47,247 bases of DNA from Phycisphaeraceae bacterium (GTDB taxonomy: Bacteria > Planctomycetota > Phycisphaerae > Phycisphaerales > Zrk34): assembly GCA_028282805.1 (NCBI GenBank), contig JANQHD010000050.1:1-47247 (forward strand), in the 5' to 3' direction. Under the pieces are notes generated by a model, which made no database searches, was not told the origin of the DNA, and saw only the letters and a program-made list of their open reading frames with translations. The translations under genes and the position numbers were made by a program. Shown one piece after another: positions 33,352 to 47,247 of this stretch. Every line of letters starts with the position of its first letter. The stretch's first letter is position 1.

Positions 33352-36300
33352 ATGCGAAGGATCACCAAGCCGATTTATCTGACCGTGCTGTGTGTGGCGG
33401 TGTGCGGTTCACCGGCGAGCGCGATCGACGTGCGGAACGACGCGGGCCACCGGCTTCAGGAGCTCGAAGCGTGGGGCACGTCGCTGGCGTGGTTCGGCAA
33501 CGGGCTGGGACTCAACGACGACGAGGCGACCAAGAGCCTGCTGATGGACATGCTGTTCGACCCGGCCAACGGGCTGGGCATGAACTACGTGCGCTACAAC
33601 ATCGGCGGCGGGCAGAACCCGGCGAACGGCCACCTGCGCGTGGGCGGCGACGTGCCGGGCTGGGTGCCGATCGAACCGAGCGACCCGCACGACCGGTCGA
33701 CGTGGGCGTGGGATTGGGACGCCGATGTGGGCCAGCGATGGACGATCCACGCGGCGATCGACCGCGGCGCCAACCTCGCCGAGGCGTTCAGCAACTCCGC
33801 GCCGTACTGGATGACCCTCTCCGGCGACGTGCGCGGCAACACCGGCGGCGCGGAGAACATCGACCAAACGTTTTACTCGGAATTCGGCCACTACCTCGCG
33901 AAGGTGACCGATCACTTCGAGAACAACGAGGGCATCCGCTTCCGCACGCTCGAACCGCTCAACGAACCCGACGCCAACTGGTGGAACATGCCCGCCAACC
34001 CGGCCTCGACCGGCGGGCAGGAAGGCATGACGGTCAACAAGGCCAACCAGGACGCGCTGCTGCGCGAGGTGTTTGCGGAGATGAACGCCGTCGGCGTCTC
34101 GGCGAAGCTCGCGGCCATGGACGAGGCCGGCCACAGCTGGGCCCGCGACTCGTACAACACCTACGACCAGGACGTGCGGGACGCCATCGCGCAGCTCAAC
34201 GCGCACGGCTACTGCTGCCACAACACCAACCAGTCGACGTCGCTACGCAACCTCGCCGCCAGCGAGGGCAAGCGGCTGTACATGAACGAGTGGGGCACGG
34301 GCAACAGCAGTGCGCTCAACGGCGGGCTGACGCTGGCCAACCGCATCACCCACGACCTCAAGCACCTGCAACCCGCGGCGTGGACGTACTGGCAGGCGAT
34401 CGAACACCGCTGGAACAACGGCGGCTGGGGCCTGATCCACGCCAACTTCAACAACCCGTCGAACAACGTCGTGCGCCCGCAATACCACGTGATGCGGCAG
34501 TACACGGCGTACATCCGGCCGGGCTCGACCGTGCTCGATGTCAACGACGCCGACACGATCGCCGCCCACGACCCCGCCGCCGACACGACCGTGATCGTGG
34601 TGAACAACGACCAGGCCACCCCGCACACGCCGACGTACGATGTTTCGAACCTGCCCCAAGCGCCGACCTTCACGCGTGTGATCACCACCGACGCCACGAA
34701 CAGCTTCGTGTCGCTCGGGCCCGCGTCGGTCGTCAACGGCCAGATCAGCCCAACGCTCGCCGGCGAATCGGTGACGACGATCGTCATGCACCACCGGCCG
34801 AACCTGGTGAACAACGGGAACTTCTTCAACCAAGGCTCGGTGCCCTTCAGCCCCGCGCCCGGCGGCGGGGTCTGGCGGTTCACCGGCAAAGCCAGCTACG
34901 CCGGCCCGCAAGACAACACGCACGACGGATCACACGCCGTCGAACTGCGCACCGACCTGCAGTTCAGCGCCGGCAAGGTGTACCAGGACGGTATCGGCGA
35001 CGGCGTCGGCGAGTTGACGGGCGAGGCGTTTGAGTTTTCCGTGGACGTGTGGTTCCCCACGCTCGATGGCTACGACGCAAGCACCTACATCGGCCTGGAG
35101 TTCCTCGGCCCCGACGGTTCGACGCTGGCGCACGGCGGCGACTTCGATTACCTCAAGCGCATCGAGCCCGTGCTCGACGCCGAGTCGAACTGGCGGGTGT
35201 ACAAGAGCGATACGGTCGCCGCGCCGCCCGGCGCGTACTACGTTCGGCCGGTGATCCGCTTCATCTCCAGCGGGCAGGGGGTCGGTGTCGTGTACGCCGA
35301 CAACGCGTACCTCGGCGCGGTGGACGACCAACCGCGCGGCCGCGCGTGGGTCGCCGACGCCGGCGGCGCCTGGGACGACGATGCCAACTGGCTGTTCGAC
35401 GTCGACACCGCGCGCCACACGACCTACGTCTTCGGCGACGCGATCAGCGCGCCCCGCACGATCGTTTCGTCGACACCCCAGACCGCCAAAACGCTGCACT
35501 TCGATTCGACGCACGCCTACAGCCTGCTCAGCCTGGACGTGCTGCTGCTCGACGGCGGCGGCGACGTGGCCGAGATCAACGCCCGCCGCGGCAGCCACCA
35601 ACTGAACACGAGCGTTAAGCTGTTAACCGATGCGCGGTTCGTCGTGGCGCAGGGCGCCGCGCTGCACGCAAACCAGTCGATCGACCTCGACGGGCACACG
35701 CTCGCCATCCACGGCCGGGGCGACGTGCACCTGGGCAACGACCTGTTTTTCAACGGCGGCACGCTCGAGCTCAACGACAGCGCCACCGTGCACCTGTCGG
35801 CCAACCTGCCCGGCGACAGCGCGATCGCGGTGGACGTGCTGGACCTGGGGCACACGCCGATGGTGTCGACCGACATCACCCTCGACGGCGCCCTGACGAT
35901 CAACCAACTGACGGCGCTGACGCTCGGCGATGAAAAAAACCTGGTTAGCGCCACCGGCGCAACCGGCATCGGCGGCGCGTTCGTGCAACCTGCGATCGTC
36001 GGCACCGACCTGCCCGACCCGGGCCACGCGCTGGCGCTGCTCTACGAAGACACCGACGCCAACAGCACGATCGACCGCGTGCGGCTTCTGGTGACTTATC
36101 GGGGCGATGCCAACGGCGACGGCGCGGTGACGCTGATCGACCTGAACAACCTGGGCGCGAACTTCGGCCAAGCCGGCACGTGGCAGAGCGGCGATTTCAA
36201 TTACGACGGTGTGGTGAGCCTGCTCGACCTCAACGCGCTGGGCGCGAACTTCGGCCAAACGATCGCCCACCCCGCCGCGGTGCCCGAACCGGCCGGCCTG

Positions 36301-36357
36301 GCGTTGCTGGCGCTGGGTGGACTAGCGTTTACCCGTCGCCGCCGGGCGAAAGCTTAG
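33352..36357 (+). CDS. Secreted GH30-like glycoside hydrolase with dockerin-like repeats and PEP-CTERM tail
   Basis: The protein has 1001 residues. A signal peptide (residues about 8-24) is followed by a (beta/alpha)8 domain like GH30 beta-1,6-galactanases: LEAWGTSLAWFGNGLG, LGMNYVRYNIGGGQNP, SNSAPYWMTLSG, then FRTLEPLNEPDANWW (acid/base Glu) and RLYMNEWGTGNSSA (nucleophile Glu). A C-terminal beta domain belonging to GH30 follows (to about residue 480), then a carbohydrate-binding-like jelly roll (about 485-665) and a beta-helix-like stretch. The end has two dockerin-like repeats (GDANGDGAVTLIDLNNLG, GDFNYDGVVSLLDLNALG) and a PEP-CTERM tail (VPEPAGLALLALGG...RRRRA). It likely cuts a surface-bound plant or algal polysaccharide outside the cell. 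ATG 33352 is preferred to TTG 33349; AAAGG lies upstream. Confidence 0.85.
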   Translation: MRRITKPIYLTVLCVAVCGSPASAIDVRNDAGHRLQELEAWGTSLAWFGNGLGLNDDEATKSLLMDMLFDPANGLGMNYVRYNIGGGQNPANGHLRVGGDVPGWVPIEPSDPHDRSTWAWDWDADVGQRWTIHAAIDRGANLAEAFSNSAPYWMTLSGDVRGNTGGAENIDQTFYSEFGHYLAKVTDHFENNEGIRFRTLEPLNEPDANWWNMPANPASTGGQEGMTVNKANQDALLREVFAEMNAVGVSAKLAAMDEAGHSWARDSYNTYDQDVRDAIAQLNAHGYCCHNTNQSTSLRNLAASEGKRLYMNEWGTGNSSALNGGLTLANRITHDLKHLQPAAWTYWQAIEHRWNNGGWGLIHANFNNPSNNVVRPQYHVMRQYTAYIRPGSTVLDVNDADTIAAHDPAADTTVIVVNNDQATPHTPTYDVSNLPQAPTFTRVITTDATNSFVSLGPASVVNGQISPTLAGESVTTIVMHHRPNLVNNGNFFNQGSVPFSPAPGGGVWRFTGKASYAGPQDNTHDGSHAVELRTDLQFSAGKVYQDGIGDGVGELTGEAFEFSVDVWFPTLDGYDASTYIGLEFLGPDGSTLAHGGDFDYLKRIEPVLDAESNWRVYKSDTVAAPPGAYYVRPVIRFISSGQGVGVVYADNAYLGAVDDQPRGRAWVADAGGAWDDDANWLFDVDTARHTTYVFGDAISAPRTIVSSTPQTAKTLHFDSTHAYSLLSLDVLLLDGGGDVAEINARRGSHQLNTSVKLLTDARFVVAQGAALHANQSIDLDGHTLAIHGRGDVHLGNDLFFNGGTLELNDSATVHLSANLPGDSAIAVDVLDLGHTPMVSTDITLDGALTINQLTALTLGDEKNLVSATGATGIGGAFVQPAIVGTDLPDPGHALALLYEDTDANSTIDRVRLLVTYRGDANGDGAVTLIDLNNLGANFGQAGTWQSGDFNYDGVVSLLDLNALGANFGQTIAHPAAVPEPAGLALLALGGLAFTRRRRAKA

Positions 36358-36366
36358 CGACCTGAT

Positions 36367-36519
36367 CCCCGTGGTCACGTCGAAAAGGTACGCTGATCCG
36401 GATCGGCTGCCGTTGTCATCGTGGTGGTCGCTTCCCACGATGGCGACGTTGCCCCAGATGCTCACGGCTTCATCGAAATAATCACCGCCAGCACCTCCGG
36501 CCCATGCGAAGGTACGCAA
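36367..36519 (-). pseudogene. Relic of an FG-GAP repeat protein
   Basis: The minus strand encodes one FG-GAP-type unit in 51 residues: GGDYFDEAVSIWGNVAIVG, HHDDNGSRSGSAYLFDVTTG. Full proteins of this type have many such blades and a signal peptide. Here the frame is too short, lacks both ends and runs into the 3' end of the GH30-like gene, so it is a leftover fragment. Confidence 0.7.
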
Positions 36520-36542
36520 ACACCATATTAATCAGTTTGCGC

Positions 36543-36570
36543 TTGCCATTACCGGACGATGTGGTATAAA
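36543..36570 (+). promoter_or_regulatory. Promoter of the Kelch-like PEP-CTERM gene
   Basis: TTGCCA (36543-36548) and TATAAA (36565-36570) are separated by 16 bases. The leader to ATG 36744 would be about 167 bases; it contains no clear terminator. Confidence 0.55.
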
Positions 36571-36743
36571 AACATTGAAGGCACATCGTCTTGCGGGGGG
36601 AATCGGAGAGTAACAGTAGGGTCTTGGCATCAGCCGAACGTTGTGCATGGCTGTGCCGATCACGTTGATCGTGATGACGACACGATCGGGTCATATGCTA
36701 CGGACTTGTGGCATCCTGCCACCGCATGGTCAAGGGGAAACCG

Positions 36744-37811
36744 ATGGAACTGATCGCGAAAGCACTGTGCGTGTTCTTGTTCGCATCTCTCGTTTTACTG
36801 TCGACCGGGCAAGCGAACGGGGATATCCAGCTCGGGCCGTGGGTTCAACAGAACGCGTATCCGACAACGGGCTACCAGTACGACGCGGTTAACCATCAGG
36901 GTTACGTCTACGTCGCGGGGGGTTGGAACGGAGCGGCTTTAGATCAGGTCTATTCGGCCCAGGCGTTCAACGACGGATCGCTCAATCCATGGAGCGGGAC
37001 TACGTCGCTGCCTGAAGTCGATCAGGGACCCGGCCTGACTGTCCACGACGGTTACCTGTTTGCATCCACTCACAACGGCGAAATGTACAGCGCGCCCATC
37101 GTCGGCAATGGCGTGGTCGGCGCCTGGCGATCCGAGCCCGCGGCTGGATTCGAAAAGGGTGGACGACTGGGTACGGAAGCCCACAACGGCTATCTCTACC
37201 AGTTCGGTGGCTGGCCCGATGCGGATAACCAGGAGGTTTTTATCTCCGCGATCGATGCCAGCGGGCACTTGACCGGTTGGAGCCAGACGACCTCAATGCC
37301 ACAGGGCCGTCAGCACACCTCCGTCCACTTTCACAACGACCGGGCTTATCTCGTCGGAGGGATCACGGGCTGGGGATCGATCCTCGACTCCGTCTACTCG
37401 GCACCGGTGAACCCGGACGGTACGCTGGGAGCGTGGCGACAGGAAGCCAACTTGCCCACCACGCTGTGGTATCACAACAGCGTGATCGTGGACAATTCGA
37501 TCCTGCTGTTCGGTGGCAGAACTGGATACAACAGCGGTAACGTGACCAATATCTACGAAGGTGAGATCGACCCCGTGACCGGGGTGATCGGCAACTGGCA
37601 GACGATTGGGAGCATGCCATCATCTCAGTTTGTGCAGGCAACGGGCGTGACTTACGACCCCACCTACAATCATGTGTACGTCATCGGTGGAGGGGACGGG
37701 AGCGCGTCGTATTCTAACGAAGTCTGGGCAGCCGAGATCGTGCCGGAGCCCGCATCGTTGGCCATGATCGTACTGGTCAGCGCGAGCATCATTTGTCGTC
37801 GCAGAGCTTGA
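36744..37811 (+). CDS. Kelch-like beta-propeller protein with PEP-CTERM tail
   Basis: The protein has 355 residues with a signal peptide (ALCVFLFASLVLLSTGQANG). Kelch-like repeats follow, each with a hydrophobic strand, double Gly or Gly-Gly and Trp: HQGYVYVAGGWNG, HNGYLYQFGGWPD, HNDRAYLVGGITGWG, DNSILLFGGRTGYN and YNHVYVIGGGDG. The tail VPEPASLAMIVLVSASIICRRRA is PEP-CTERM. The propeller may bind carbohydrate or protein at the cell surface; no catalytic site is seen. ATG 36744 has AAGGGG 6 bases upstream and opens on the signal peptide; an in-frame ATG at 36708 does not. Its codon use is less GC-rich than the housekeeping genes. Confidence 0.8.
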   Translation: MELIAKALCVFLFASLVLLSTGQANGDIQLGPWVQQNAYPTTGYQYDAVNHQGYVYVAGGWNGAALDQVYSAQAFNDGSLNPWSGTTSLPEVDQGPGLTVHDGYLFASTHNGEMYSAPIVGNGVVGAWRSEPAAGFEKGGRLGTEAHNGYLYQFGGWPDADNQEVFISAIDASGHLTGWSQTTSMPQGRQHTSVHFHNDRAYLVGGITGWGSILDSVYSAPVNPDGTLGAWRQEANLPTTLWYHNSVIVDNSILLFGGRTGYNSGNVTNIYEGEIDPVTGVIGNWQTIGSMPSSQFVQATGVTYDPTYNHVYVIGGGDGSASYSNEVWAAEIVPEPASLAMIVLVSASIICRRRA

Positions 37812-37839
37812 GCCGCATCCTTGCTGACCTGCCCCCTCG

Positions 37840-38115
37840 ATGTACGGCAACTGGACCCGATACCGCGTCGAGATCGAGAACACCAACCACAGTATGGCGT
37901 ACTGGGATGGGTCCGACTGGGCCTACGCCTACACCGACAGCAACCCATTCGGCGGAGCGTTTCCCTACCTAGGCACATCGTTGGAGTTTATGTTCGGCGG
38001 TCCATCTCGTGTGTTCGCATTGGACAACGTGGTTATGACGCCAGAACCAACATCCGTTGCGCTAATCACACTGGGCGGCTTGATGTGGATGCGTCGCCAC
38101 GGGGCAAGTGCTTAA
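37840..38115 (+). pseudogene. 3' remnant of another PEP-CTERM protein
   Basis: The 91-residue frame lacks a signal peptide and starts inside a jelly-roll-like segment (YRVEIENTNHSMAYWDGSDWAYAYT, a typical LamG/PEP-CTERM strand pattern), runs through SRVFALDNVVMTPEPTSVALITLGG and ends RRHGASA. The PEP-CTERM tail without an N-terminus shows a truncated gene. It follows the Kelch-like gene by 28 bases. Confidence 0.7.
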
Positions 38116-38456
38116 AACGAATACACTAGGTTGAACCGGATGCAACGAGCGGCGACGGCAGCCACCGCTTTTCTTAGCATGTTGGTGTATTCTCCAGCCA
38201 TAGACCAGGTAGCAGACTGGTGCGGTTAATTGGTTTGGGCCAATCCCTGTATACCGTCGAGGACAGGCACAGACCACAGGCATGTCAAATAGCAAAGCGT
38301 GCCAAACAACAAGGATCGCGGACCGCTACTTAACTCTCCGCTTTACTCGCCGGACTTTCTCTGCTGAAACATGCAAGTCGGTGCATTCAGAGGCCGTTCG
38401 CCCGCGCCCCGTCACCCGCGGCGGTGATGATCGTAAGTCCAGCGAAGACAAAGCAT
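38116..38456. other. Intergenic stretch before tRNA-Ser(GCT)
   Basis: I see no gene. Open frames here are short and lack ribosome sites. A dyad GGTTAATTGGTTTGGGCCAATCC lies about 38222-38245, of unknown role; it is written here only by its halves TTGG and CCAA. Confidence 0.4.
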
Positions 38457-38488
38457 TTGACAACGACAACGACAATTGCAACGATACT
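38457..38488 (+). promoter_or_regulatory. Candidate promoter of tRNA-Ser(GCT)
   Basis: A consensus TTGACA is at 38457-38462. The -10 is poor: AACGAT (38480-38485) at spacing 17, or GATACT (38483-38488) at spacing 20. Confidence 0.45.
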
Positions 38489-38498
38489 CAATCAGCCG

Positions 38499-38589
38499 GG
38501 AGAGGTGGCCGAGCGGCTGAAGGCACCGGTTTGCTAAACCGGCGTAGGGGTATACACCCCTACCGCGGGTTCGAATCCCGCCCTCTCCG
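38499..38589 (+). tRNA. tRNA-Ser (anticodon GCT), integration site of the element
   Basis: A 91-base class II tRNA: acceptor GGAGAGG/CCTCTCC, anticodon stem CCGGT/ACCGG with loop TTGCTAA (anticodon GCT, reading AGC/AGU), long variable arm (GTAGGGGTATACACCCCTAC), T-arm GCGGG-TTCGAAT-CCCGC, discriminator G. The tyrosine integrase gene is directly downstream and oriented toward it, the usual sign that the tRNA 3' end is the attachment site. Confidence 0.96.
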
Positions 38590-38604
38590 CTTTTTCACAA
38601 CGAG

Positions 38605-38647
38605 CCCTCACAAAGCCTTGCCATGCAAGATTTTGTGAGGGTTTCTT
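38605..38647 (+). terminator. Hairpin terminator after tRNA-Ser(GCT)
   Basis: CCCTCACAAA (38605-38614) pairs with TTTGTGAGGG (38632-38641), followed by TTTCTT. It ends tRNA transcription in the plus direction and may also stop transcripts leaving the integrase gene. Confidence 0.75.
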
Positions 38648-38681
38648 GATTGCTGACTGCCCGCGCGCCCTCAAAGCGCCC

Positions 38682-39812
38682 TCAACGTTGGTGCTCTGGC
38701 CGGTTGCTTATCGTGGTGTCGTTCGCGAGTGCCAACATGGCCGCCTGGCTGTCGGCATCGGTGAGGTGGTAATACAGGTCGAGGATCTCCGACGAGCTAT
38801 GGCCAAGCCAGACCAAGGCTTTCCGGTAGGCAACCTGGTGGTTGGCACACAGGCTGGCGAAATGATGGCGAAACGAGTGGACCTTGTATTGATTTGGGTT
38901 GGGAAAGCCTAATTCCGCGCACAGTTTTTTCAGCCGGATCAGCAGCCTGCGGTCCTTGATAGCTGGAAAGACCAGATTTGATGATCGCGGCAGCGCTTCA
39001 ATGAGCGGTTTGATCCTGGGGTGAATAGGAATAAACCGGTGGTCCTTGTCCTTGGTCGTACCCATGGACCCACCACGACGGATGTAGAACATCCCCAAGT
39101 CACCTCTGTCGAACAGTACATCTGGCCACTGCAGCTGAATCAGCTCGCCGACCCGAAGACCGGCGTATGCCAGTGTGGCGAACGCGGCGCGTTCAGCATC
39201 ATCTGTCGCTGCAAGAATCTGCTCAACCTGGCCCGTGGTAAAACAGGCCTGTGGTTTGGCGCGAGCTTTGGAGACCTTGACCGTACCGATCGGATAATCC
39301 GACAGCTTGCCTTCCTGGTGTGCCCATTTGAAAACCTGCTTGCAAAGGATCAATACCCCGTAAATTGTTTTGTCGGCGTAATTGTGGGTGGTCAGCCATT
39401 GACGGTACCGATAGAACGCATCACGATCAAAACGATGCGCCATCACCAGCCGCTGCTCGGTACAATAGTCGCTCAGCTTCTTGAGATCAGAGCGGTACTT
39501 GGCTTCGGTCTTGGGTGCTAGCCCACGAACCTGGACCATCAGCATGTACTGGGTGATTAACTCTTCGATCGTAAGCTTGTTTTCCGCAATCCGCGGCCTG
39601 CCCTCTGAAAGCCGGGCGTGGATGGCGAGGGCTCCGCGCTTCGCTTCGGCCAAGTTGGTTGTTCCCAGGCTTTCACATATCTGTTTCCCGGAATCATCAC
39701 GGTATTCCGCAGAATAAGTGCGGCTAGTGCTCTGCTTACCGCCCTTTTTCGACACACGCCGCCCGATGGTGATCTCGGTGCCATCGACCCGGCAACGCCC
39801 CTCCATCTTCAT
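38682..39812 (-). CDS. int: Tyrosine recombinase (integrase)
   Basis: The protein has 376 residues. An N-terminal core-binding domain (about 80-170, TIEELITQYMLMVQVRGLAP) precedes the catalytic domain. The active-site residues are visible: Arg220 (AYAGLRVGEL), a Lys near 253 (GTTKDKDHRF), His312 and Arg315 (HSFRHHF), His338 (WLGHSS) and Tyr347 or Tyr348 (LDLYYHL). The set is complete, so the enzyme should be active. Its ATG (39810-39812) overlaps the excisionase stop as ATGA, so the two are translationally coupled. It points at tRNA-Ser(GCT), whose 3' end is the probable attachment site. Confidence 0.95.
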   Translation of the reverse strand: MKMEGRCRVDGTEITIGRRVSKKGGKQSTSRTYSAEYRDDSGKQICESLGTTNLAEAKRGALAIHARLSEGRPRIAENKLTIEELITQYMLMVQVRGLAPKTEAKYRSDLKKLSDYCTEQRLVMAHRFDRDAFYRYRQWLTTHNYADKTIYGVLILCKQVFKWAHQEGKLSDYPIGTVKVSKARAKPQACFTTGQVEQILAATDDAERAAFATLAYAGLRVGELIQLQWPDVLFDRGDLGMFYIRRGGSMGTTKDKDHRFIPIHPRIKPLIEALPRSSNLVFPAIKDRRLLIRLKKLCAELGFPNPNQYKVHSFRHHFASLCANHQVAYRKALVWLGHSSSEILDLYYHLTDADSQAAMLALANDTTISNRPEHQR

Positions 39813-40024
39813 CGCATGAAGTCCTGAACGAGCCGGTCACGCCAGAAACGGAGCGGCTTGCCCCGCTTGACCGCGGAACTGTATCGCCCCTCCGAGACGT
39901 GACGATAGAGCGTGGATCGCTTGATGCGCAATATACGAGCGGCTTCATCCGGAACCAAGATGGGCGGGTAACCGCTACTATCAAGCGACGCCGATATTTC
40001 TTGTTGAGTCAGTTTACGATTCAT
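39809..40024 (-). CDS. Excisionase-type winged helix protein
   Basis: The protein has 71 residues. It carries the MerR-like/excisionase helix-turn-helix VPDEAARILRIKRSTLYRHVSEGRY followed by RGKPLRFWRDRLVQDFM, the common form of DNA-binding proteins that bend attachment sites and direct excision. Its stop overlaps the integrase start by four bases. Regulation of the pair is probably from the AT-rich region just upstream. Confidence 0.9.
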   Translation of the reverse strand: MNRKLTQQEISASLDSSGYPPILVPDEAARILRIKRSTLYRHVSEGRYSSAVKRGKPLRFWRDRLVQDFMR

Positions 40025-40126
40025 CTGTATTCCGTTTCTGACATGTCATCGTTTCGTGTTTCAATATCTAAATTGATCTATCCATACACTGACTTATGTG
40101 TATCCCCAACAAGCAATTTTGCATGG

Positions 40127-40417
40127 CTACCGCTGGTTCTGTTTCTCAGCGGCCTTGGCGGCGGCTTTGCTGTTTCGCGAACGCTCTTGGTCGCTCAGCT
40201 CGCTTACGCGGGCGATAGCCATGTCGACCAACGAACCCAAGGCGGGCAGGTCCCGTTGCCCGAAGGTCGTGGTGTCGTGGTAGTTGCCGTCCTTGTCGCG
40301 GTAGGTCCGCACGATGGAGGTATTGAACATCACGCCGTTCTGTGTCTCGTTGCGCCAGATCGTCGCCTTCAGGCCGTTGAGCCGCAGCGTGTCGGCGGGT
40401 GGTTGTTTGGTGGTCAT
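40127..40417 (-). CDS. Small island protein of unknown function
   Basis: The protein has 96 residues from ATG 40415-40417, which has AAAGGAGAG upstream; a longer frame to 40459 is not supported. It shows TLRLNGLKATIWRNETQNGVMFNTSIVRTYRDKDGNYHDTTTFGQ split by a turn, then a helical, basic end (SKAAAKAAEKQNQR). The strand-rich half with WRNE and the T-F-x-R-x-Y repeats look like small proteins often found beside integrases in other genomic islands; I have no family name. A nucleic-acid-binding role is only a guess from its basic end. Confidence 0.7.
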   Translation of the reverse strand: MTTKQPPADTLRLNGLKATIWRNETQNGVMFNTSIVRTYRDKDGNYHDTTTFGQRDLPALGSLVDMAIARVSELSDQERSRNSKAAAKAAEKQNQR

Positions 40418-40530
40418 AGTGACTCTCCTTTCTGTGGTTATCGTGACTGCACATACCACGGTTCTGCCTTGCGGCGCTACACTTGTCTCCGGCTACACCA
40501 TTGGAGAGGGACTCTCACACCGGTGGCTTG

Positions 40531-40607
40531 GGCTGCTGCTGGATCGGATCGCCGTCGGGTCTCACCCCCGGGAACGGCCCGACGGCGACGCCGAGGAAGC
40601 AGCAGCC
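40531..40607. other. Large imperfect stem-loop in the element (oriT- or RNA-like)
   Basis: GGCTGCTGCT (40531-40540) pairs with AGCAGCAGCC (40598-40607) and, inside, GCCGTCGGG (40551-40559) pairs with CCCGACGGC (40578-40586). The two stems are nested around an 18-base loop. It lies in a 314-base gap (40418-40731) that holds no convincing gene. Read-through frames on the plus strand lack a ribosome site. Confidence 0.5.
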
Positions 40608-40679
40608 TCCTACCTCAAACTGCTGCTGGACGGTTAAGCCCGAGGGTCTTAAACAGACACACCGCAGCCCATCCATGAG

Positions 40680-40706
40680 AAAACCCGCAGCCATAAGCTG
40701 CGGGTT
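40680..40706 (-). terminator. Terminator of the 44-residue ORF (minus strand)
   Basis: ACCCGCAGC and GCTGCGGGT (40683-40691 and 40697-40705) form a 9-bp stem with a 5-base loop. On the minus strand it is followed by TTTTCTC. It lies 26 bases after the stop of the small gene at 40732. Confidence 0.75.
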
Positions 40707-40731
40707 CTTGGGGGTACGACGGGAAGCGGAA

Positions 40732-40866
40732 CTACTTGTTCGGCTTCCAAACCCACCGGCCGTTCTCCCAGACCTTCACCTGCGTGCCGAGGATGTTGGT
40801 CACGGGGAACGGGCCGCGGTAGGCCTTGTTGTCGTACAGACCCCTGTGGTAGTCCTTGCCGCTCAT
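40732..40866 (-). CDS. 44-residue small protein of the element
   Basis: The ORF runs from ATG 40864-40866 to TAG 40732-40734. It reads MSGKDYHRGLYDNKAYRGPF... and ends VWENGRWVWKPNK, with four aromatic residues in the last half and a Gly-rich turn. A GGAG site lies 7 bases upstream, and a terminator lies directly downstream, which together make a real gene likely despite its size. Function unknown; it lies in the same-strand series with the membrane protein and ATPase. Confidence 0.6.
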   Translation of the reverse strand: MSGKDYHRGLYDNKAYRGPFPVTNILGTQVKVWENGRWVWKPNK

Positions 40867-40935
40867 GGCGTTGCTCCGACTACGGGTTGAAGGAAGCGAG
40901 CGTGACCGCCACGCTCTACTGTTCTGTGTCCGATC

Positions 40936-41754
40936 TCAGGCCGCGTTTGCAGGAATAGATAAGTTTTCCTGCGGCTTATCCTGCTCCACACTTGCGCAGA
41001 TCAACTCGCGTTCCTGATCGGTCCACGCACCAGCCCCTTCAACGATGAAACCCTCGGTCTGATCGGGCTCGTGGTTACCCTGGAGGGCCACCGTGAAGTG
41101 CTCGGCCATGATCTGCTGGTCGATCTGGTCCAGGAGCAGGTGACGGTAGCGGGTGTAGCGGGCGTACTGGTGGATCATCAGGCAGATGCCGCTGAGCATC
41201 ATGTAGAAGCCGAACCCGTCGTAGCTGACCCTAGTGCCCCTGCCCCACACCGAATCGTAGTCCTGGCGGTCGTAAGTGAGCCAGGAAAGAAGCATCCCAA
41301 GCCCGAACAGGATGGCCGGCTCGATGAACATCTCGATGTGGGTGGTCTTGAACCGCGATGTGAACCGCTCGATCCACGGCGTGCCCGCGTTGTAGCTGTG
41401 CCAGCGGATGTTGTGCTTGTTGCGCCACTGCACCCGCCACCGGTGGACCGCCCACGCGATCAGGACGGCGTAAGACAGCAGCCCGCCGATCACCGACTCG
41501 TTGGCCATGGCCACGGTGCTGATAATCACGTGGGCCCCCAACGCCAGCCAACCGCTCAGGAAACGCTCGCCGAACTCGTAGTGCATCAGCAGCAACCACG
41601 GGTAGGCGAGCAGGTCGATGACCTGACTGAAGATCTGCTTGACGACCCGGATGGCGACGAGCGTCTCCTGCCCACGCTGGTAGCCGGTCTTGATGCTGTT
41701 GTAGAACGAGGCTTGCTGTTCAGCCGACATGGTACTCTTCTGATCCGACGACAT
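40936..41754 (-). CDS. Four- to five-helix membrane protein next to the coupling-like ATPase
   Basis: The protein has 272 residues. It has a soluble N-terminus (residues 1-45, with QQASFYNSIKTGYQRGQETL), then hydrophobic segments at about 46-62 (VIDLLAYPWLLLM), 68-85 (LSGWLALGAHVIISTVAMA), 88-105 (IGGLLSYAVLIAWAV), 145-165 (EPAILFGLGMLLSWL) and 185-200 (FYMMLSGICLMI). The end is acidic (ERELICASVEQDKPQE). ATG 41752-41754 has GGAG 7 bases upstream and lies 15 bases after the ATPase stop. It may anchor the ATPase, as TraM or VirB10-like partners do, but no sequence similarity is claimed. Confidence 0.7.
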   Translation of the reverse strand: MSSDQKSTMSAEQQASFYNSIKTGYQRGQETLVAIRVVKQIFSQVIDLLAYPWLLLMHYEFGERFLSGWLALGAHVIISTVAMANESVIGGLLSYAVLIAWAVHRWRVQWRNKHNIRWHSYNAGTPWIERFTSRFKTTHIEMFIEPAILFGLGMLLSWLTYDRQDYDSVWGRGTRVSYDGFGFYMMLSGICLMIHQYARYTRYRHLLLDQIDQQIMAEHFTVALQGNHEPDQTEGFIVEGAGAWTDQERELICASVEQDKPQENLSIPANAA

Positions 41755-41769
41755 GATTGATCTCCTGGG

Positions 41770-43221
41770 CTAGCTCTGGCGGAAGGTGACGGGAAGGTAG
41801 TTTCTGCCCGTGGCGGTCCACACACGGCCCGCCTGAAAGACCAGTGCATCGACAAGGAAAGAATTTGCAGGACCGCCCCGACGCAGCCGCGTGAAGTGTG
41901 AGGCGAGCACGTTGGATTCCAGCGACGGGTTGACCCCGCTGCTGACAGTGGGGTCGTTGCGGTTGGCCCCCGCCTTCGGGTCCGGGTTCCTGGGTTGCTG
42001 CGAGACGTTGGAGTTGGTCCGGTACGTCCAATCGCGGGCGATCACCCGCTCGGCCCAGTCGTTGGTCTCCGCGTCGCCGTTGCAGTGGAACACCTTCGTG
42101 GCGAGGTTCGCCAGGAACGCGTCGGCGATCGCCTTGCCGTTGCCCGACGAGCCCAGCTTGGCGTAGTAGGCTGAGATCGCCTGCGTGAGGTAGACCGTAG
42201 CGGTGCGTGACGACCTCGCCGTCGCTTGGAACGCCGAGTCGGTGCTGACCAGAAAGTCCTGGGCCTCGTCCACCCAAAGGAACTGAGGGCGTGGGCTGCG
42301 GTTGATGTCGCGGCGTTCGGTGGCCTGCTGCCAGAGGTACTTAATCAGCACCTGCGTGAACTTGCCGACCTGCCCGAACTCCTTCAAAGGGAGGTCCAGT
42401 AGCAGGACCTTGCCCGACTGGGTCACCTCGGGCGTGATGTTCAAGCCGGTGCCGAACAGGTCGTACAGCACGCCGCGGTTGAACATGTCGGCCATCACCA
42501 AAAAAGTCTGGACCACGTTGCTCTGGGTCCGAGGGTCTTCGCTGGGGAACTGGCTCAACCAGTAGTACTCGACCACGGCGTAGTCCCGCTGGCCGCTGCG
42601 GCTGGCCTTCTCCAGCAACCGTACACAGAGAGAGGACCGCTGCCAGCCGGGGTCGTCGAGCAACTCGGGGCTCGTGGGCGCCGATGCGACCACTTCGTTG
42701 ATCGCCCGCATGGACAGTGGCTCGCCAGCCATCATCAACAGGTCGAGCGTGTTCCGAAGCAGCCGCTTGACCGCCCGGTCGAAGAACTTCTCCGCGGCCC
42801 TGGCGTCGCCCTGCTCGCTGGCTTCCAGCAACACCATGAAGAGGTTGACCAGGTTCTCGGTGAGCCCTGCCCCGCGGCCGGGCCGGGAGCGTTCGTACTC
42901 CAGGAAGTTGAACCGGTGGGACGAATCGGGCGAGAAGACGATCAGGTCGTCCTGCCGCCCGGCCTGCTGGAGGTACTTCATCCAGTCGGCCTTGTCGGAG
43001 ACCTTGTTCGTCAGCACAAGGCCCCCGAACCCGGCCGACAGGTACGCCTTAGCCAACGCCGCACCCGACCCGGACGTCTTGCCGCTGCCCGTGCTGCCGA
43101 AGACCTGAACGCCCTCAAAGGCATCATTCAGCCGGAAGCCATCGGCATCTTTAGGCGACAGACGCAGCAAAGTCGGGTTGGTGTCGGGCTGGCGCTTCGA
43201 TCGCTTACGCTTGAACCACAT
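41770..43221 (-). CDS. VirD4/TraD-like type IV coupling ATPase
   Basis: The protein has 483 residues. Walker A is GSTGSGKT (42-49, in FEGVQVFGSTGSGKTSGSG), Walker B FLWVDEAQDFL near 290, and a TQ-x-ISAYYA motif after it, as in conjugative coupling proteins and TraG/TraD ATPases. It has no N-terminal membrane helices, so it would need a membrane partner; the next gene down encodes one. The start ATG 43219-43221 overlaps the stop of the sigma-like gene as TGATG. A GTG 12 bases earlier is the alternative. In conjugation such ATPases bring the DNA-relaxase complex to the secretion channel; no relaxase is seen in the window, so the cargo is unknown. Confidence 0.82.
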   Translation of the reverse strand: MWFKRKRSKRQPDTNPTLLRLSPKDADGFRLNDAFEGVQVFGSTGSGKTSGSGAALAKAYLSAGFGGLVLTNKVSDKADWMKYLQQAGRQDDLIVFSPDSSHRFNFLEYERSRPGRGAGLTENLVNLFMVLLEASEQGDARAAEKFFDRAVKRLLRNTLDLLMMAGEPLSMRAINEVVASAPTSPELLDDPGWQRSSLCVRLLEKASRSGQRDYAVVEYYWLSQFPSEDPRTQSNVVQTFLVMADMFNRGVLYDLFGTGLNITPEVTQSGKVLLLDLPLKEFGQVGKFTQVLIKYLWQQATERRDINRSPRPQFLWVDEAQDFLVSTDSAFQATARSSRTATVYLTQAISAYYAKLGSSGNGKAIADAFLANLATKVFHCNGDAETNDWAERVIARDWTYRTNSNVSQQPRNPDPKAGANRNDPTVSSGVNPSLESNVLASHFTRLRRGGPANSFLVDALVFQAGRVWTATGRNYLPVTFRQS

Positions 43222-43745
43222 CAATCGGCCCACCCTTCCATCGGCTCCCGCATGGCCTTGTAGGCGCGACGCAGGCAGGTGGTCACGGCGTTCTCGTCCG
43301 GCAGGCCGAGCACCTCGGCGATGTGGCGGTAGGGCATGTGATGGAAGTAGCGCAGGATCACGGCGTAGCGGTCGGCCCCGTGAAGCTGCATCAACGCCTC
43401 ACGCAGGGCGGCGGCGAGCTCGCTCTGCTCTGCGGCCTGATACGGATCAATAACCTCGAGACGCTTCGGGACAAGAAGTCCCTTGTCGTTTTCGATCCAC
43501 TTACGGTCGCGGTTCTGGCCGCCGATGATCCGAGCACCCTTGCACCGGACGATGCGGTGCGACAAACCCTTCAGGCTCGTACGCACCTTGTTATTGCGGA
43601 TGGTTTCGATCAGATCGACGTTGGCTTCCTGAACGGCGTCACTGATGTCGTGAAGACTCAGGTACTTGCCGAGCCCGCCGCCCCGTTGGAGCAGCTCAGT
43701 CTGGAGTTCGGTCAGTTCGTGTTCTGAGGGGGGTTGGGCCTGCAT
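43221..43745 (-). CDS. Sigma-70-like (ECF-type) protein of the element
   Basis: The protein has 174 residues. Region 2-like helices lie in LHDISDAVQEANVDLIETIRNNKVRTSLKGLSHRIVRCK, and a C-terminal helix-turn-helix like sigma region 4 in ALMQLHGADRYAVILRYFHHMPYRHIAEVLGLPDENAVTTCLRRAYKAMRE. This is the shape of small sigma factors, or of an HTH protein that shares their fold. ATG 43743-43745 has a strong AAGGAGG 6 bases upstream. It is the first gene of the minus-strand cluster (sigma, ATPase, membrane protein). Finding a sigma factor translationally coupled to a coupling ATPase is unusual. Confidence 0.8.
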   Translation of the reverse strand: MQAQPPSEHELTELQTELLQRGGGLGKYLSLHDISDAVQEANVDLIETIRNNKVRTSLKGLSHRIVRCKGARIIGGQNRDRKWIENDKGLLVPKRLEVIDPYQAAEQSELAAALREALMQLHGADRYAVILRYFHHMPYRHIAEVLGLPDENAVTTCLRRAYKAMREPMEGWAD

Positions 43746-43825
43746 TGGGCACCTCCTTAGGTCTGGGGTTTTTCGTTACCGCAGACACAGTGAAGGTTTT
43801 GCTAACCCTTTGGAGAGGTGTTTGT

Positions 43826-43865
43826 TACAATCAACTCCAAGGAAGTGCCAAACAATTCCAAGGAA
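43826..43865 (+). promoter_or_regulatory. Twin TTCCnnGGAA-type sites and a -10 between divergent genes
   Basis: CTCCAAGGAA (43835-43844) and TTCCAAGGAA (43856-43865) are 21 bases apart, that is two helical turns, in the 139-base gap between the sigma-like and HTH genes. TACAAT at 43826-43831 is a possible -10 for the plus-strand gene. The nearby HTH protein is the obvious candidate to bind the sites. Confidence 0.5.
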
Positions 43866-43884
43866 CTATTTCGGGGGTGTCCCC

Positions 43885-45024
43885 ATGGGAAAAAAGAAGC
43901 CCGGCAGGCCCAACATCCGCATCCCCATTGATGCGGACAAGGTCAAGATCAGGTTCAACGCCAGCGGTATGGTTGCTAGGTCAATCGTCACGCAAGCCGC
44001 ACGTTTCGATATTGATATTTCGGAAAGTTCAATTCGCGAAGCCATTCGCGCTCGGAAGGCTTCCCCCAACGTGTTGCGCGCAATATCGATCGTTCTAGAA
44101 GTCTCACCATATGAGTTTGTGAAGGACACAAAGAAGCACGCTGACGTGCTGCAAGCGATCCACGAGGAATTAGGAGACACAGAACGCCAGCGGGTTTTCA
44201 GCGGCAGCCGGACACGCCGCGCGAAAGACCCATCGCAGCGTGTCCAAGACAAGAAAAACCTCATCGTCGACCCGAAGGTGTCCAACGCCCTGATCAAGAT
44301 GGTTGGTGTTCCTAGTCTCTACGAGGCCGTCTGTGCATCAGGGATGTACACACCTCTCAATGACGCACATAAAGACACACCGTATGTGCCTGGCATGGCC
44401 TACAACCACTTCCTCATGCTCGGTGTGGTCGTGAGGCTATCCTGGCCAAAACAAGAGCAGCACCTAGCTATCGCGTATCACCGGCAGCGAGGGCGACTGA
44501 ATTACACCTACAAACACACCAAGGGCTTTTCGATCCTTTGGGCGACAGGCTTCGAATATCCGGTGGGTGTTACCCGTGATCCGGACATGCAGCACTGGAT
44601 TGACTTAGCCACTGAGAATCCAAGAGACGCTGAAGACCTGTTCATCGGTAACGCCAACCCGACCTTACTTCGTCTGTTTACTCACAAGCTTAAACTCATC
44701 AAGACCAACTGCTCGATCAAACCTTTGGGTGTAGTGACCAACGACCAGCAACCGAGCAAGCCACGGGTCTACACCCAATACGTGTTCCAAATCGATGTCG
44801 AGTTGGAGTCGGAACCCCCAGATATGGCTGCTTTCCTGAAGACCATCGTGCAGGAACCCGACCAACCCGAAACCATCGCGTGTGAACCTCAAGCGTCGGA
44901 CCAGTTCATCAACGATAATGGCCAGCCTCTCCGGATGGATATCGCAGCTTGGCGGCTGATCCTTGGCAGTAAGGTGAGCGACAAAGACGCCGCAGCTTAC
45001 TCAGCGGGCTTCGAGATTAAGTAA
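43885..45024 (+). CDS. HTH-containing protein of unknown function
   Basis: The protein has 379 residues from ATG 43885, which has GGGGGTG upstream; the longer frame lacks support. Residues about 25-75 form a Cro/C1-like helix-turn-helix (TQAARFDIDISESSIREAIR, then ASPNVLRAISIVLEVSPYEFV). The large remainder is unlike known repressors: a strand-rich domain with YEAVCASGMYTPLNDAHKD, YNHFLMLGVVVRLSWPK, RQRGRLNYTYKHTKGFSILWATGFE. A C-terminal acidic part follows. It could be the element's master regulator or a ligand-responsive repressor. It is divergent from the sigma-like gene. Confidence 0.65.
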   Translation: MGKKKPGRPNIRIPIDADKVKIRFNASGMVARSIVTQAARFDIDISESSIREAIRARKASPNVLRAISIVLEVSPYEFVKDTKKHADVLQAIHEELGDTERQRVFSGSRTRRAKDPSQRVQDKKNLIVDPKVSNALIKMVGVPSLYEAVCASGMYTPLNDAHKDTPYVPGMAYNHFLMLGVVVRLSWPKQEQHLAIAYHRQRGRLNYTYKHTKGFSILWATGFEYPVGVTRDPDMQHWIDLATENPRDAEDLFIGNANPTLLRLFTHKLKLIKTNCSIKPLGVVTNDQQPSKPRVYTQYVFQIDVELESEPPDMAAFLKTIVQEPDQPETIACEPQASDQFINDNGQPLRMDIAAWRLILGSKVSDKDAAAYSAGFEIK

Positions 45025-45189
45025 CACGATATATTCTATGCCGTGTTCAATGTGTTTGCCCTGTAGAATAGAGGAAGCCGTTACCACAATCTGGTGAATA
45101 AGAAGCGTAACCCGAGATTAACAGTCGGTTGGAATCTTTAGTTGTCCTAGGCAATCAGTGGTAGCTGCATTCAATGTACTGGGGAACCC

Positions 45190-46428
45190 ATGGTCGAAGA
45201 CGCCCTTAAAACGTGCCGCAACCTGCACCGATTGATTATTGCTGTCAACGTGGCGGCTATCGTATTCGCGTTGTCGATATCCCGCCCGGAAGATGATTCG
45301 CTGGTAGTGGAACAGATCGAGTCGTTCGAGCAGGTCGACTTTGCCAAATACCCTGACTGGGCAGACGATCTTGCGCAACGTCAATACGCTAAACGCCATC
45401 AGAAGATGATTGCTGCGTTCGCTGAAGAACTCGGCAAGATCGACAGCCTAGTCTTTAACATCCACCATATCGCAGATGTGGCCGGCACCAGTCCTCACGT
45501 GAGTAGGTTATTGGTTGAAGACACCATGCTGGTGTCTGGGGATGCTGCGAAGATTGATGCGATAGAACAATTGCTTTCGCCGCTATACCATGTCGGCCGC
45601 GATGTGCAGATCTGGGTACCGGACTTGTCACGAGAACTGATCCAAGATATCAGCAACTTTATCAACGAGAACGGAACAACAGGTTCGCGCATCGACAACG
45701 TGCGGATTGAAATGCAAACTGCGCCCATTCTTTCGTCACCGCACAACTTCGTCCCCACCGAAGAGGCTTTTGCACAAATTTATTTCGAGATCGTCCCGCC
45801 CCAAGGCGGTGGCCCTGTATTCACTCGCGATCTAAAATGCACAATCGAAGAGGTGCCGAACACGTCTTTGCTGCAATGGCTCCAGTTCAATGGGCAATCC
45901 AGCAAAGCACTAAAGATCGATGCCGGCAAGATTCAAGTGTTTCCAGAACTCCGGCCTTTTTCGAAGGGATTTTCGCAAAAAACGATCGGCGAGGCGCGGA
46001 ACACCGCATTGGATAACATCCGTTCGATGAGTCCGGAATCTCAGAGCATCACGCTCTTAGGCACAAAGGTACCAGGGCAGTTGGCTACGATCGCTGCGCC
46101 TGTTGTATCGACTTTACTTTTGTTCTATCTGGCAGCGCACTTGCCGCACATGCGACGGTTAATGGACAGGCACTCAGATGAGATCGCCGAGTTTGCTTGG
46201 CTGGCGCTGCAGCCGGGACGAAGCTGGCTAATTGATGTTACAGGGACGCTTGTCGTATTACCAATGATCGCGTTTATTATCATGAATATTCGACTGTCGG
46301 CGTTCGAGACGTCCCGTGTTGCGATCTTCTTGGTCTCAACCATATCGACAGCGCTGGGCGTGGTTGCCGCATTGTTAATCGTGCAGTACTTAAAGACGAT
46401 TCGTGCCAGGTTCAGCAAAACCAACTAG
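45190..46428 (+). CDS. Membrane protein of unknown function in the element
   Basis: The protein has 412 residues: one membrane helix near the N-terminus (about 13-32, LIIAVNVAAIVFALSIS), a large external or periplasmic domain of about 260 residues with FNIHHIADVAGTSPHVSRLL and YFEIVPPQGGG, then three helices (about 305-325, 350-375 and 382-403: APVVSTLLLFYLAAHL, LVVLPMIAFIIMNI, FLVSTISTALGVVAALLIV). No family is recognised. GGGG lies just before ATG 45190. Base composition is among the lowest in GC in the window. Confidence 0.65.
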   Translation: MVEDALKTCRNLHRLIIAVNVAAIVFALSISRPEDDSLVVEQIESFEQVDFAKYPDWADDLAQRQYAKRHQKMIAAFAEELGKIDSLVFNIHHIADVAGTSPHVSRLLVEDTMLVSGDAAKIDAIEQLLSPLYHVGRDVQIWVPDLSRELIQDISNFINENGTTGSRIDNVRIEMQTAPILSSPHNFVPTEEAFAQIYFEIVPPQGGGPVFTRDLKCTIEEVPNTSLLQWLQFNGQSSKALKIDAGKIQVFPELRPFSKGFSQKTIGEARNTALDNIRSMSPESQSITLLGTKVPGQLATIAAPVVSTLLLFYLAAHLPHMRRLMDRHSDEIAEFAWLALQPGRSWLIDVTGTLVVLPMIAFIIMNIRLSAFETSRVAIFLVSTISTALGVVAALLIVQYLKTIRARFSKTN

Positions 46429-46690
46429 TTCATAAACAAGCATCGTGCTCTCATCTGTTTTCTAAGCTAAATGCGAAAATCGCTTGCCTCTTACCTACGT
46501 CTTGGTCTAGTCTCAACTTTGCTACCACCGTTATGAACGCATCCCCCTTGTCGGGGTTTTGGGTGAATACAAGACCCTTCGGGGGAATAACTCAGACTTC
46601 CTTTGCGTTTGTAATGGTTGGTAGCAGCCCCGGCACCCGGGCATGCCGTCCTGTGCCGACGTTTGTTCAACCACGGGGGAGACCGACCAC

Positions 46691-47026
46691 ATGCCGGCCG
46701 CGTTACCTAACCGACTGCGGGAATGCCGCAAGAGAGCCAACATGAGCATGAACGCTCTGGCCGAACGGGTGGGAACCTCAAAGAGCCAGATCGACAAACT
46801 GGAACGCGGTGAACGTCGGCTCTCTCTTGACTGGATGATCCGCTTAGCCCAAGCCTTGGGCTGTCACCCTATCGAGTTTCTTCCGCTAGAAGTGGGTCAG
46901 CGATCGCAAACGGATCGCTGGTTGGCGGAACACGGTATCGAGATCATCAAAAAGGGCCAGACGCTTCAAATTCGCCTTTCCCGCAAGCCCTTGATTCAAC
47001 TCAGTTTTTGCCCGGAAATGGACTAA
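46691..47026 (+). CDS. XRE-family transcriptional regulator
   Basis: The protein has 111 residues. A Cro/C1 helix-turn-helix fills residues 6-60: LRECRKRANMSMNALAERVG, TSKSQIDKLERGERRLSLDWMIRLAQALGCHPIEFLP. A short C-terminal part follows with IEIIKKGQTLQIRLSRKP. ATG 46691 has GGGGGAG 10 bases upstream; the longer frame from 46643 is less likely. The 262 bases before it (46429-46690) show a short C4/G4 hairpin with T run near 46544-46560 and no gene. Confidence 0.8.
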   Translation: MPAALPNRLRECRKRANMSMNALAERVGTSKSQIDKLERGERRLSLDWMIRLAQALGCHPIEFLPLEVGQRSQTDRWLAEHGIEIIKKGQTLQIRLSRKPLIQLSFCPEMD

Positions 47027-47039
47027 ATCACAAGAAAAA

Positions 47040-47090
47040 CTGGACTCTGGCGTGAGGGTGTGCGATAATAAACGTACGTGTTAACGTACG
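47040..47090 (+). promoter_or_regulatory. Promoter and operator of the antitoxin gene
   Basis: CTGGAC (47040-47045) and GATAAT (47064-47069) are spaced by 18 bases. Downstream, AACGTACG occurs at 47071-47078 and again at 47083-47090, a repeated palindromic hexamer CGTACG, 12 bases apart. Such paired sites suit autoregulation by a Phd/YefM-type antitoxin. Confidence 0.55.
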
Positions 47091-47121
47091 CTACAGCGTA
47101 AACAAAACGAGAGTTTGAGCC

Positions 47122-47247
47122 ATGAGAACAGACGATATCACCAGCGTGACCCAGCATCGCGATCACCTCCGCGACCACCTCAACCAGGTGAAACAGACGG
47201 GTCGGCCCATGTTCATCACCAACCGCGGCGGCGAGACCGAAGCGGTC
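47122..47247 (+). CDS. Phd/YefM-type antitoxin, N-terminal part (cut by window end)
   Basis: The 42 visible residues read MRTDDITSVTQHRDHLRDHL...TGRPMFITNRGGETEAV. This matches the N-terminal DNA-binding half of prevent-host-death antitoxins (xIxxVTexrxxl...vk-tgrPvfITnrGk-xaV). A RelE/ParE-type toxin gene would be expected just outside the window. The promoter region has paired CGTACG sites, consistent with autoregulation. A GAGAG site precedes the ATG. Confidence 0.85.
   Translation, partial: MRTDDITSVTQHRDHLRDHLNQVKQTGRPMFITNRGGETEAV

Follow-up and report, generated by a model that had tools for sequence, protein, structure and literature searches.

A tRNA-Ser(GCT) locus of a Phycisphaeraceae bacterium as the probable end of a mobilizable element with a coupling ATPase lacking a transmembrane domain

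A contig of a Phycisphaeraceae bacterium carries, next to a tRNA-Ser(GCT) gene, an integrase gene and a cluster encoding a sigma factor, a VirD4-like ATPase and a membrane protein, and it raises the question of which kind of element this is and what the cluster does in it. The window, meaning the whole stretch of DNA analysed, is the entire 47,247-base contig C4 from an assembly of 3.9 Mb in 56 contigs. In our reading it probably holds one end of an element resembling integrative mobilizable elements, with a type IV coupling protein (T4CP) lacking a transmembrane domain (TMD), a membrane anchor for this protein, and a T4SS that would come from elsewhere. The cluster is not a new sigma-ATPase system; it is a known kind of coupling module in a different arrangement, and its pairing with the sigma factor is local. 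The following features were found, from the tRNA gene to the end of the contig:

38499..38590, plus strand: tRNA-Ser(GCT), detected with ARAGORN; the element's integration site, marking one of its ends
38682..39812, minus strand: tyrosine integrase, 376 aa (PF00589, Phage_integrase, 2.3e-15; PF02899, 9e-07; phrog_1 integrase, 1.4e-47)
39809..40024, minus strand: excisionase-like HTH protein, 71 aa (HTH_17, 8.5e-07; phrog_9834 excisionase, 3e-04)
40127..40459, minus strand: conserved accessory protein, 110 aa, without family match; homologues in 11 element loci (family d8)
40936..41754, minus strand: 272-aa membrane protein that may anchor the ATPase; 2 clear hydrophobic helices; family d3/d19
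41770..43233, minus strand: VirD4/TraG-like putative coupling ATPase without transmembrane domain, 483-487 aa; family-profile matches
43221..43745, minus strand: ECF-type sigma factor, 174 aa (PF08281, Sigma70_r4_2, 8.7e-09; TIGR02937)
43885..45024, plus strand: divergent 379-aa protein, without family match and without plasmid match
45190..46428, plus strand: 412-aa protein bearing hydrophobic helices at its N- and C-terminal ends (4 hydrophobic segments), without family match
46643..47026, plus strand: Cro/C1-type HTH regulator, likely start at 46691 (HTH_3, 1.4e-14)
47123..47247, plus strand: first part of a gene for a Phd/YefM-like antitoxin, truncated where the contig stops; named by eye from the sequence

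The preliminary description of this DNA had placed an integrative element at tRNA-Ser(GCT), and the ARAGORN prediction together with the family matches of the integrase and the excisionase-like protein confirmed this. The integrase belongs to family d7 and was found again in relatives; in L067, L073 and L079 the same integrase is accompanied by the excisionase-like protein. Both an integrase and an excisionase are thus present at a defined site, as in integrative mobilizable elements, and together they would move the element in and out of the chromosome at tRNA-Ser(GCT). The right attachment site, sought as a repeat of the tRNA 3' terminus, was not recovered: within the own assembly only other tRNA genes matched, and the contig is truncated.

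The tRNA-Ser(GCT) gene is an integration hot spot, since other recombinase elements adjoin it in two further genomes. In G001 (L116 9747-14066) and G007 (L118 5775-7484), a serine-recombinase-like gene of another element follows or overlaps the tRNA gene. Upstream of the tRNA gene in the window (36000-38500), the G+C content is already down from about 0.67 to 0.56-0.61, and older insertions may flank the tRNA-Ser site.

Rightward from the tRNA, the minus-strand genes encode the integrase, the excisionase, the 110-aa protein, the 272-aa membrane protein, the ATPase and the sigma factor, in this order. The sigma stop codon and the likely ATPase start, probably the ATG at 43221, overlap as TGATG, and 15 bases separate the stop codon of the ATPase from the start of the membrane-protein gene; because of this overlap and the short gap, the three genes look like one operon. 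The minus-strand cluster with overlapping start and stop, noticed earlier from the open reading frames, holds up on the TGATG overlap and the family matches. Proteins of family d8 (80-125 aa), to which the 110-aa protein belongs, recur in the 11 element loci and are uncharacterised; the two copies scanned had no Pfam match, and the window copy had no PHROGs or NCBIfam match. The divergent 379-aa protein is possibly element cargo or a regulator.

The locus could also be a genomic island, either degenerate or integrative only, in which the operon is an immobile leftover, a reading that we consider very improbable. The G+C content of the element (0.50-0.65, against about 0.67 in the host) and the lack of a PF08751 relaxase in the own genome are consistent with such an island, but every gene is open, and the integrase, the excisionase and the sigma-ATPase-membrane operon are tightly coupled.

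Taken alone, the window ATPase gave weak Pfam matches to T4SS coupling families (E 0.16-0.28), below the cut-offs, but an alignment of 24 family members made its class clear. The best solved-structure match of the 24-member profile was DotL/IcmO of the Dot/Icm system (3.3e-09), followed by HerA (6e-03). TraG-D_C was matched in 23 out of the 24 members and TrwB_AAD_bind in 17, and the Walker A lysine and DE columns of the alignment are invariant. The family possesses the P-loop nucleotide-binding domain of the VirD4/TraG class, which upholds the earlier naming of the ATPase as VirD4/TraD-like. It is also homologous to a TraJ-type protein, the TMD-less kind of T4CP: in hhalign, the family aligned with the pRE25 protein at the pIP501 TraJ position over 388 columns (prob 95.8%, E 7e-09).

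The earlier remark that the ATPase has no membrane helices of its own was correct, as a simple hydropathy scan of the window protein gave 0 hydrophobic helices; the N-terminal transmembrane domain typical of VirD4 is lacking as well. Nearly all its relatives are likewise without a hydrophobic helix; L061/L062 have one near the N-terminus. The best reading of these profile and hydropathy results is that the ATPase would belong to the type IV coupling proteins without a TMD. The single-sequence structure model of the ATPase had a pLDDT of 33.5 and gave no usable fold. FtsK-type transfer as in actinomycete elements was considered and rejected, with no FtsK match in the Pfam scans, and so was a viral origin, with no relatives in viral contigs or phages and none in PHROGs.

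Relatives of the ATPase were present in 41 of the 301 genomes of the same order. Forty-five loci were read; two of them, L089 and L090, were divergent and were set aside, leaving 43 family loci. A membrane protein of family d3/d19 lies downstream of the ATPase in most loci, and a small membrane protein is directly adjacent downstream of it in the window and in most relatives, the kind of neighbour known from the pIP501 TraJ/TraI type. By the simple hydropathy scan, relatives of the 272-aa protein have 0-6 hydrophobic helices, so that the "multi-helix membrane protein" of the preliminary description corresponds to 2 clear helices in the window copy and up to 6 in homologues. Residues conserved in the family are G62, H119, G124, E145 and D212. 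No sequence match to the 272-aa protein was found in plasmids. In L050 and L055-L058, a membrane protein of about 480 aa and a coiled-coil protein of about 450 aa with a signal-like start follow the ATPase and replace the small anchor.

The 272-aa protein is likely the anchor of the ATPase, because it is conserved beside the ATPase across relatives. ATPase homologues with such a neighbour were seen in dozens of genomes, more than chance would produce. The suggestion that the next protein supplies the anchor gains support from this conserved adjacency and from the hydrophobic helices. Encoded right after the ATPase, the membrane protein would serve as its dock at the membrane, and ATPase and dock could jointly act as a one-piece VirD4 does, taking the relaxase-DNA complex and feeding it to the secretion channel.

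The sigma factor exceeded the cut-off of the NCBIfam sigma70-ECF model (TIGR02937; 48.8 bits, cut-off 42.9), which makes it an ECF sigma; region 4 was found with Pfam, and region 2 was not among the Pfam matches. The preliminary description had proposed that the sigma factor and the coupling ATPase cooperate in a new system for handling DNA or protein, and the TGATG overlap of the two genes speaks in its favour. Sigma-like genes also lie upstream of the ATPase, at 1.3-1.5 kb and not overlapping it, in L044 (TIGR02937, 2e-09) and L074 (6e-05), but their products do not align with the window sigma. Among the 301 genomes, the search for an orthologue returned only generic ECF similarity (best non-self match 3e-9, 33%), and none beside a family ATPase. 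A ParB-like gene was found in 18 out of 44 loci, often directly upstream of the ATPase, which is the slot taken by the sigma gene in the window.

Planctomycetes are rich in ECF sigma factors, so some near neighbours of the ATPase are expected. ECF-like genes occur elsewhere in about ten loci, and in none of the loci read do they overlap the ATPase gene. Some other loci contain pairs of an ECF and a kinase gene, probably cargo; none of them aligns with the window sigma beyond generic similarity. The preliminary description had itself named a sigma-like gene not conserved with the ATPase as the finding that would speak against its proposal, and this is what the search for the cassette in other genomes showed. 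A cooperating sigma-ATPase system is already largely refuted and, in our judgement, extremely improbable. The sigma factor would instead be a local, replaceable regulator of the operon, outside the conserved unit.

The partner that does recur with the ATPase is a relaxase. A TrwC/MOBF relaxase (PF08751, 1.7e-59) was found within about 23 kb of the ATPase in 35 out of the 43 family loci. In 28 loci this relaxase-helicase was in the DNA fetched first, and wider flanks added seven more (L060, L067, L074, L078, L079, L083 and L092), at roughly 9-23 kb. The eight loci without a relaxase are the window, L045, L051, L052, L073, L075, L076 and L085, and all of them but L052 are truncated, with a contig end near the ATPase to one side or both. 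A new, relaxase-less type of element, as suggested at first, is not what the relatives show, given MOBF near the ATPase in most family loci and truncation of nearly all the others.

Two of the relatives, L074 and L092, have a layout like that of the window, with a tRNA, an integrase, the membrane protein and the ATPase. Seen from the integrase, their relaxase genes are on the far side of the ATPase at a distance of 15-18 kb, and the window extends only 4 kb in that direction; the relaxase of the window copy therefore most likely lies off the contig. No relaxase was found in the window, and none of the TrwC class (PF08751), the only MOB class searched there, in the own genome. The lack of TrwC in the bin would agree with a repeat contig having been left out of it. 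In the elements with such a gene, the TrwC/MOBF relaxase, seen in relatives and placed beyond the contig end here, would nick the DNA and lead it.

One relative, L067, was at first a candidate for a compact, relaxase-less element of 7 kb. It was rejected, as a 24-base tRNA-Ser repeat lies 60 kb off and the relaxase lies 18 kb from the ATPase. In this complete genome (G018), 24 bases of the tRNA-Ser(CGA) 3' end are repeated exactly at a distance of 60 kb, in direct orientation and with no tRNA gene attached. Between the two repeats (G018:C1:929077-989130; L111, L110, L109, L067) lie the genes for the integrase, excisionase, membrane protein, ATPase and relaxase, together with a QueD-like gene and a cluster resembling type II secretion genes (gsp). 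The 60-kb boundary is provisional, because this gsp-like cluster falls inside it and because the 24-mer also occurs in a relative, G073, next to a comparable gsp-like cluster and hypothetical genes.

The end of contig C4 (47247) falls inside the element, 4 kb past the ATPase, and is a contig end rather than an element end. The last 387 bases (46861-47247) have 96% identity to the end of contig C52 (L043 10350-10736, G000), downstream of a tRNA-Thr, and the homology begins within the HTH gene; this two-copy repeat broke the assembly there. In the search for a continuation of C4, only this end of C52 matched the last 387 bases within the own assembly, and a 45-base pattern had no match in viral contigs. 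The statement that no relaxase or secretion genes are visible is true of the window; it says nothing about the element, because the contig breaks off inside it. Another contig, L009 (JANQFF010000266.1), assigned to a Pseudomonadales MAG, terminates at exactly the base where C4 does. It carries the right-hand quarter of C4 with the element, including a 100% identical ATPase, and probably represents the misbinning of a planctomycete contig.

With the contig ending inside the element, the visible part could be only the integrase end of a self-transmissible ICE, with T4SS genes beyond the contig end. VirB4, the mark of such an ICE, was sought with one model (TIGR00929), which may miss divergent or helper channels. 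It was found neither in the own genome, which is 99.8% complete, nor in 15 other ATPase hosts, a result that covers the bin, to which the DNA beyond the end of C4 does not belong. Full-length VirB4 was present in only five of the 301 genomes (L132-L136, all family f6), and none of these has the ATPase. Besides the position of the contig end, a Nitrosospira plasmid with the same ATPase speaks for an ICE, being typed as conjugative MPF_T by MOB-suite, yet no VirB set is among its 19 listed genes. An ordinary ICE with a standard conjugation region nearby, which the preliminary description had considered as a counter-explanation, does not fit these results well, and we regard it as unlikely.

The ATPase-bearing elements look mobilizable rather than conjugative, because VirB4 is missing from the ATPase hosts examined. 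The VirB4-type T4SS channel would then be supplied by another element. It is also conceivable that the ATPase and its membrane partner form a stand-alone DNA-export conduit for relaxase-bearing elements in planctomycetes without VirB4. Dozens of elements share the pair, in hosts where no VirB4 was found, and the ATPase and the multi-helix membrane protein are, together with the relaxase, the most constant unit, which would suit such a conduit. Similar ATPases, however, sit on small plasmids resembling ordinary mobilizable ones, the single VirB4 model may have passed over a channel, and we know of no VirD4-class motor that exports DNA alone. A conduit of this kind is thus quite improbable.

The ATPase (41 of 301 genomes) is far commoner than full-length VirB4 (five of 301), and the two never occur in the same genome, which raises the question of who supplies the channel. 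In a marine survey, mobilizable elements likewise far outnumbered conjugative ones (PMC11104534), so the imbalance by itself does not establish a new mechanism, and binning may lose conjugative elements.

Homologous ATPases were found on plasmids with several relaxase types, namely the Nitrosospira plasmid (18.9 kb, MOBP), a Skermanella mucosa plasmid (22 kb, MobQ, MOBQ), an Acuticoccus plasmid (31 kb, MobA/MobL), a Runella plasmid (11.3 kb, MOBF) and the planctomycete plasmid pK2D_1 (CP036351, MOBF). On the proteobacterial plasmids, a small helix-bearing protein is encoded directly after the ATPase; on the Runella plasmid and pK2D_1, the gene after the ATPase has no predicted helix. No VirB set was found in the plasmid gene lists (PLSDB gene tables, which are incomplete). 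The two-piece coupling protein is widespread, occurring in planctomycetes, proteobacteria and Bacteroidota, and offers material for studying how a TMD-less T4CP docks. A literature search on such elements in this planctomycete order returned almost nothing, and a previously unannotated pair of ATPase and membrane protein is now tied to DNA mobilization there.

Among known systems, T4CPs lacking a TMD have been described as a class with a small membrane partner, alongside TraG-J pairs (PMC7434980, PMC7431656), and some of them dock on small membrane proteins, such as pIP501 TraJ/TraI (PMC7434980). Similar to pIP501 and pRE25, where a TMD-less VirD4-type ATPase stands beside a small membrane protein (PMC7434980), the window has such a pair, and the 388-column profile match joins the ATPases. 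In the pRE25 gene order, however, the partner is encoded upstream, as part of a complete T4SS operon, whereas in the window a 272-aa multi-helix partner lies downstream of the ATPase and no T4SS was seen. In the TraG-J pairs of the R27 type, the coupling protein likewise needs an adjacent membrane protein, of about 200 residues and with up to five helices (PMC7434980), but TraG has its own TMD and the window ATPase has none. CloDF13 (MOBC1) resembles the element in having a mobilization region that encodes a coupling protein but no channel (PMC7434980, PMC7431656); its MobB has a TMD and its relaxase is MOBC, in contrast to the TMD-less ATPase here and the MOBF relaxase of the relatives. The plasmid pK2D_1, typed as mobilizable, has a MOBF TraI gene divergent to a 34%-identical ATPase, and differs in being a plasmid with ParA/ParB and metal resistance in which the next gene has no predicted helix. 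As far as sequence comparison can tell, the window ATPase and its membrane protein fit the described pairs of a TMD-less T4CP and its partner.
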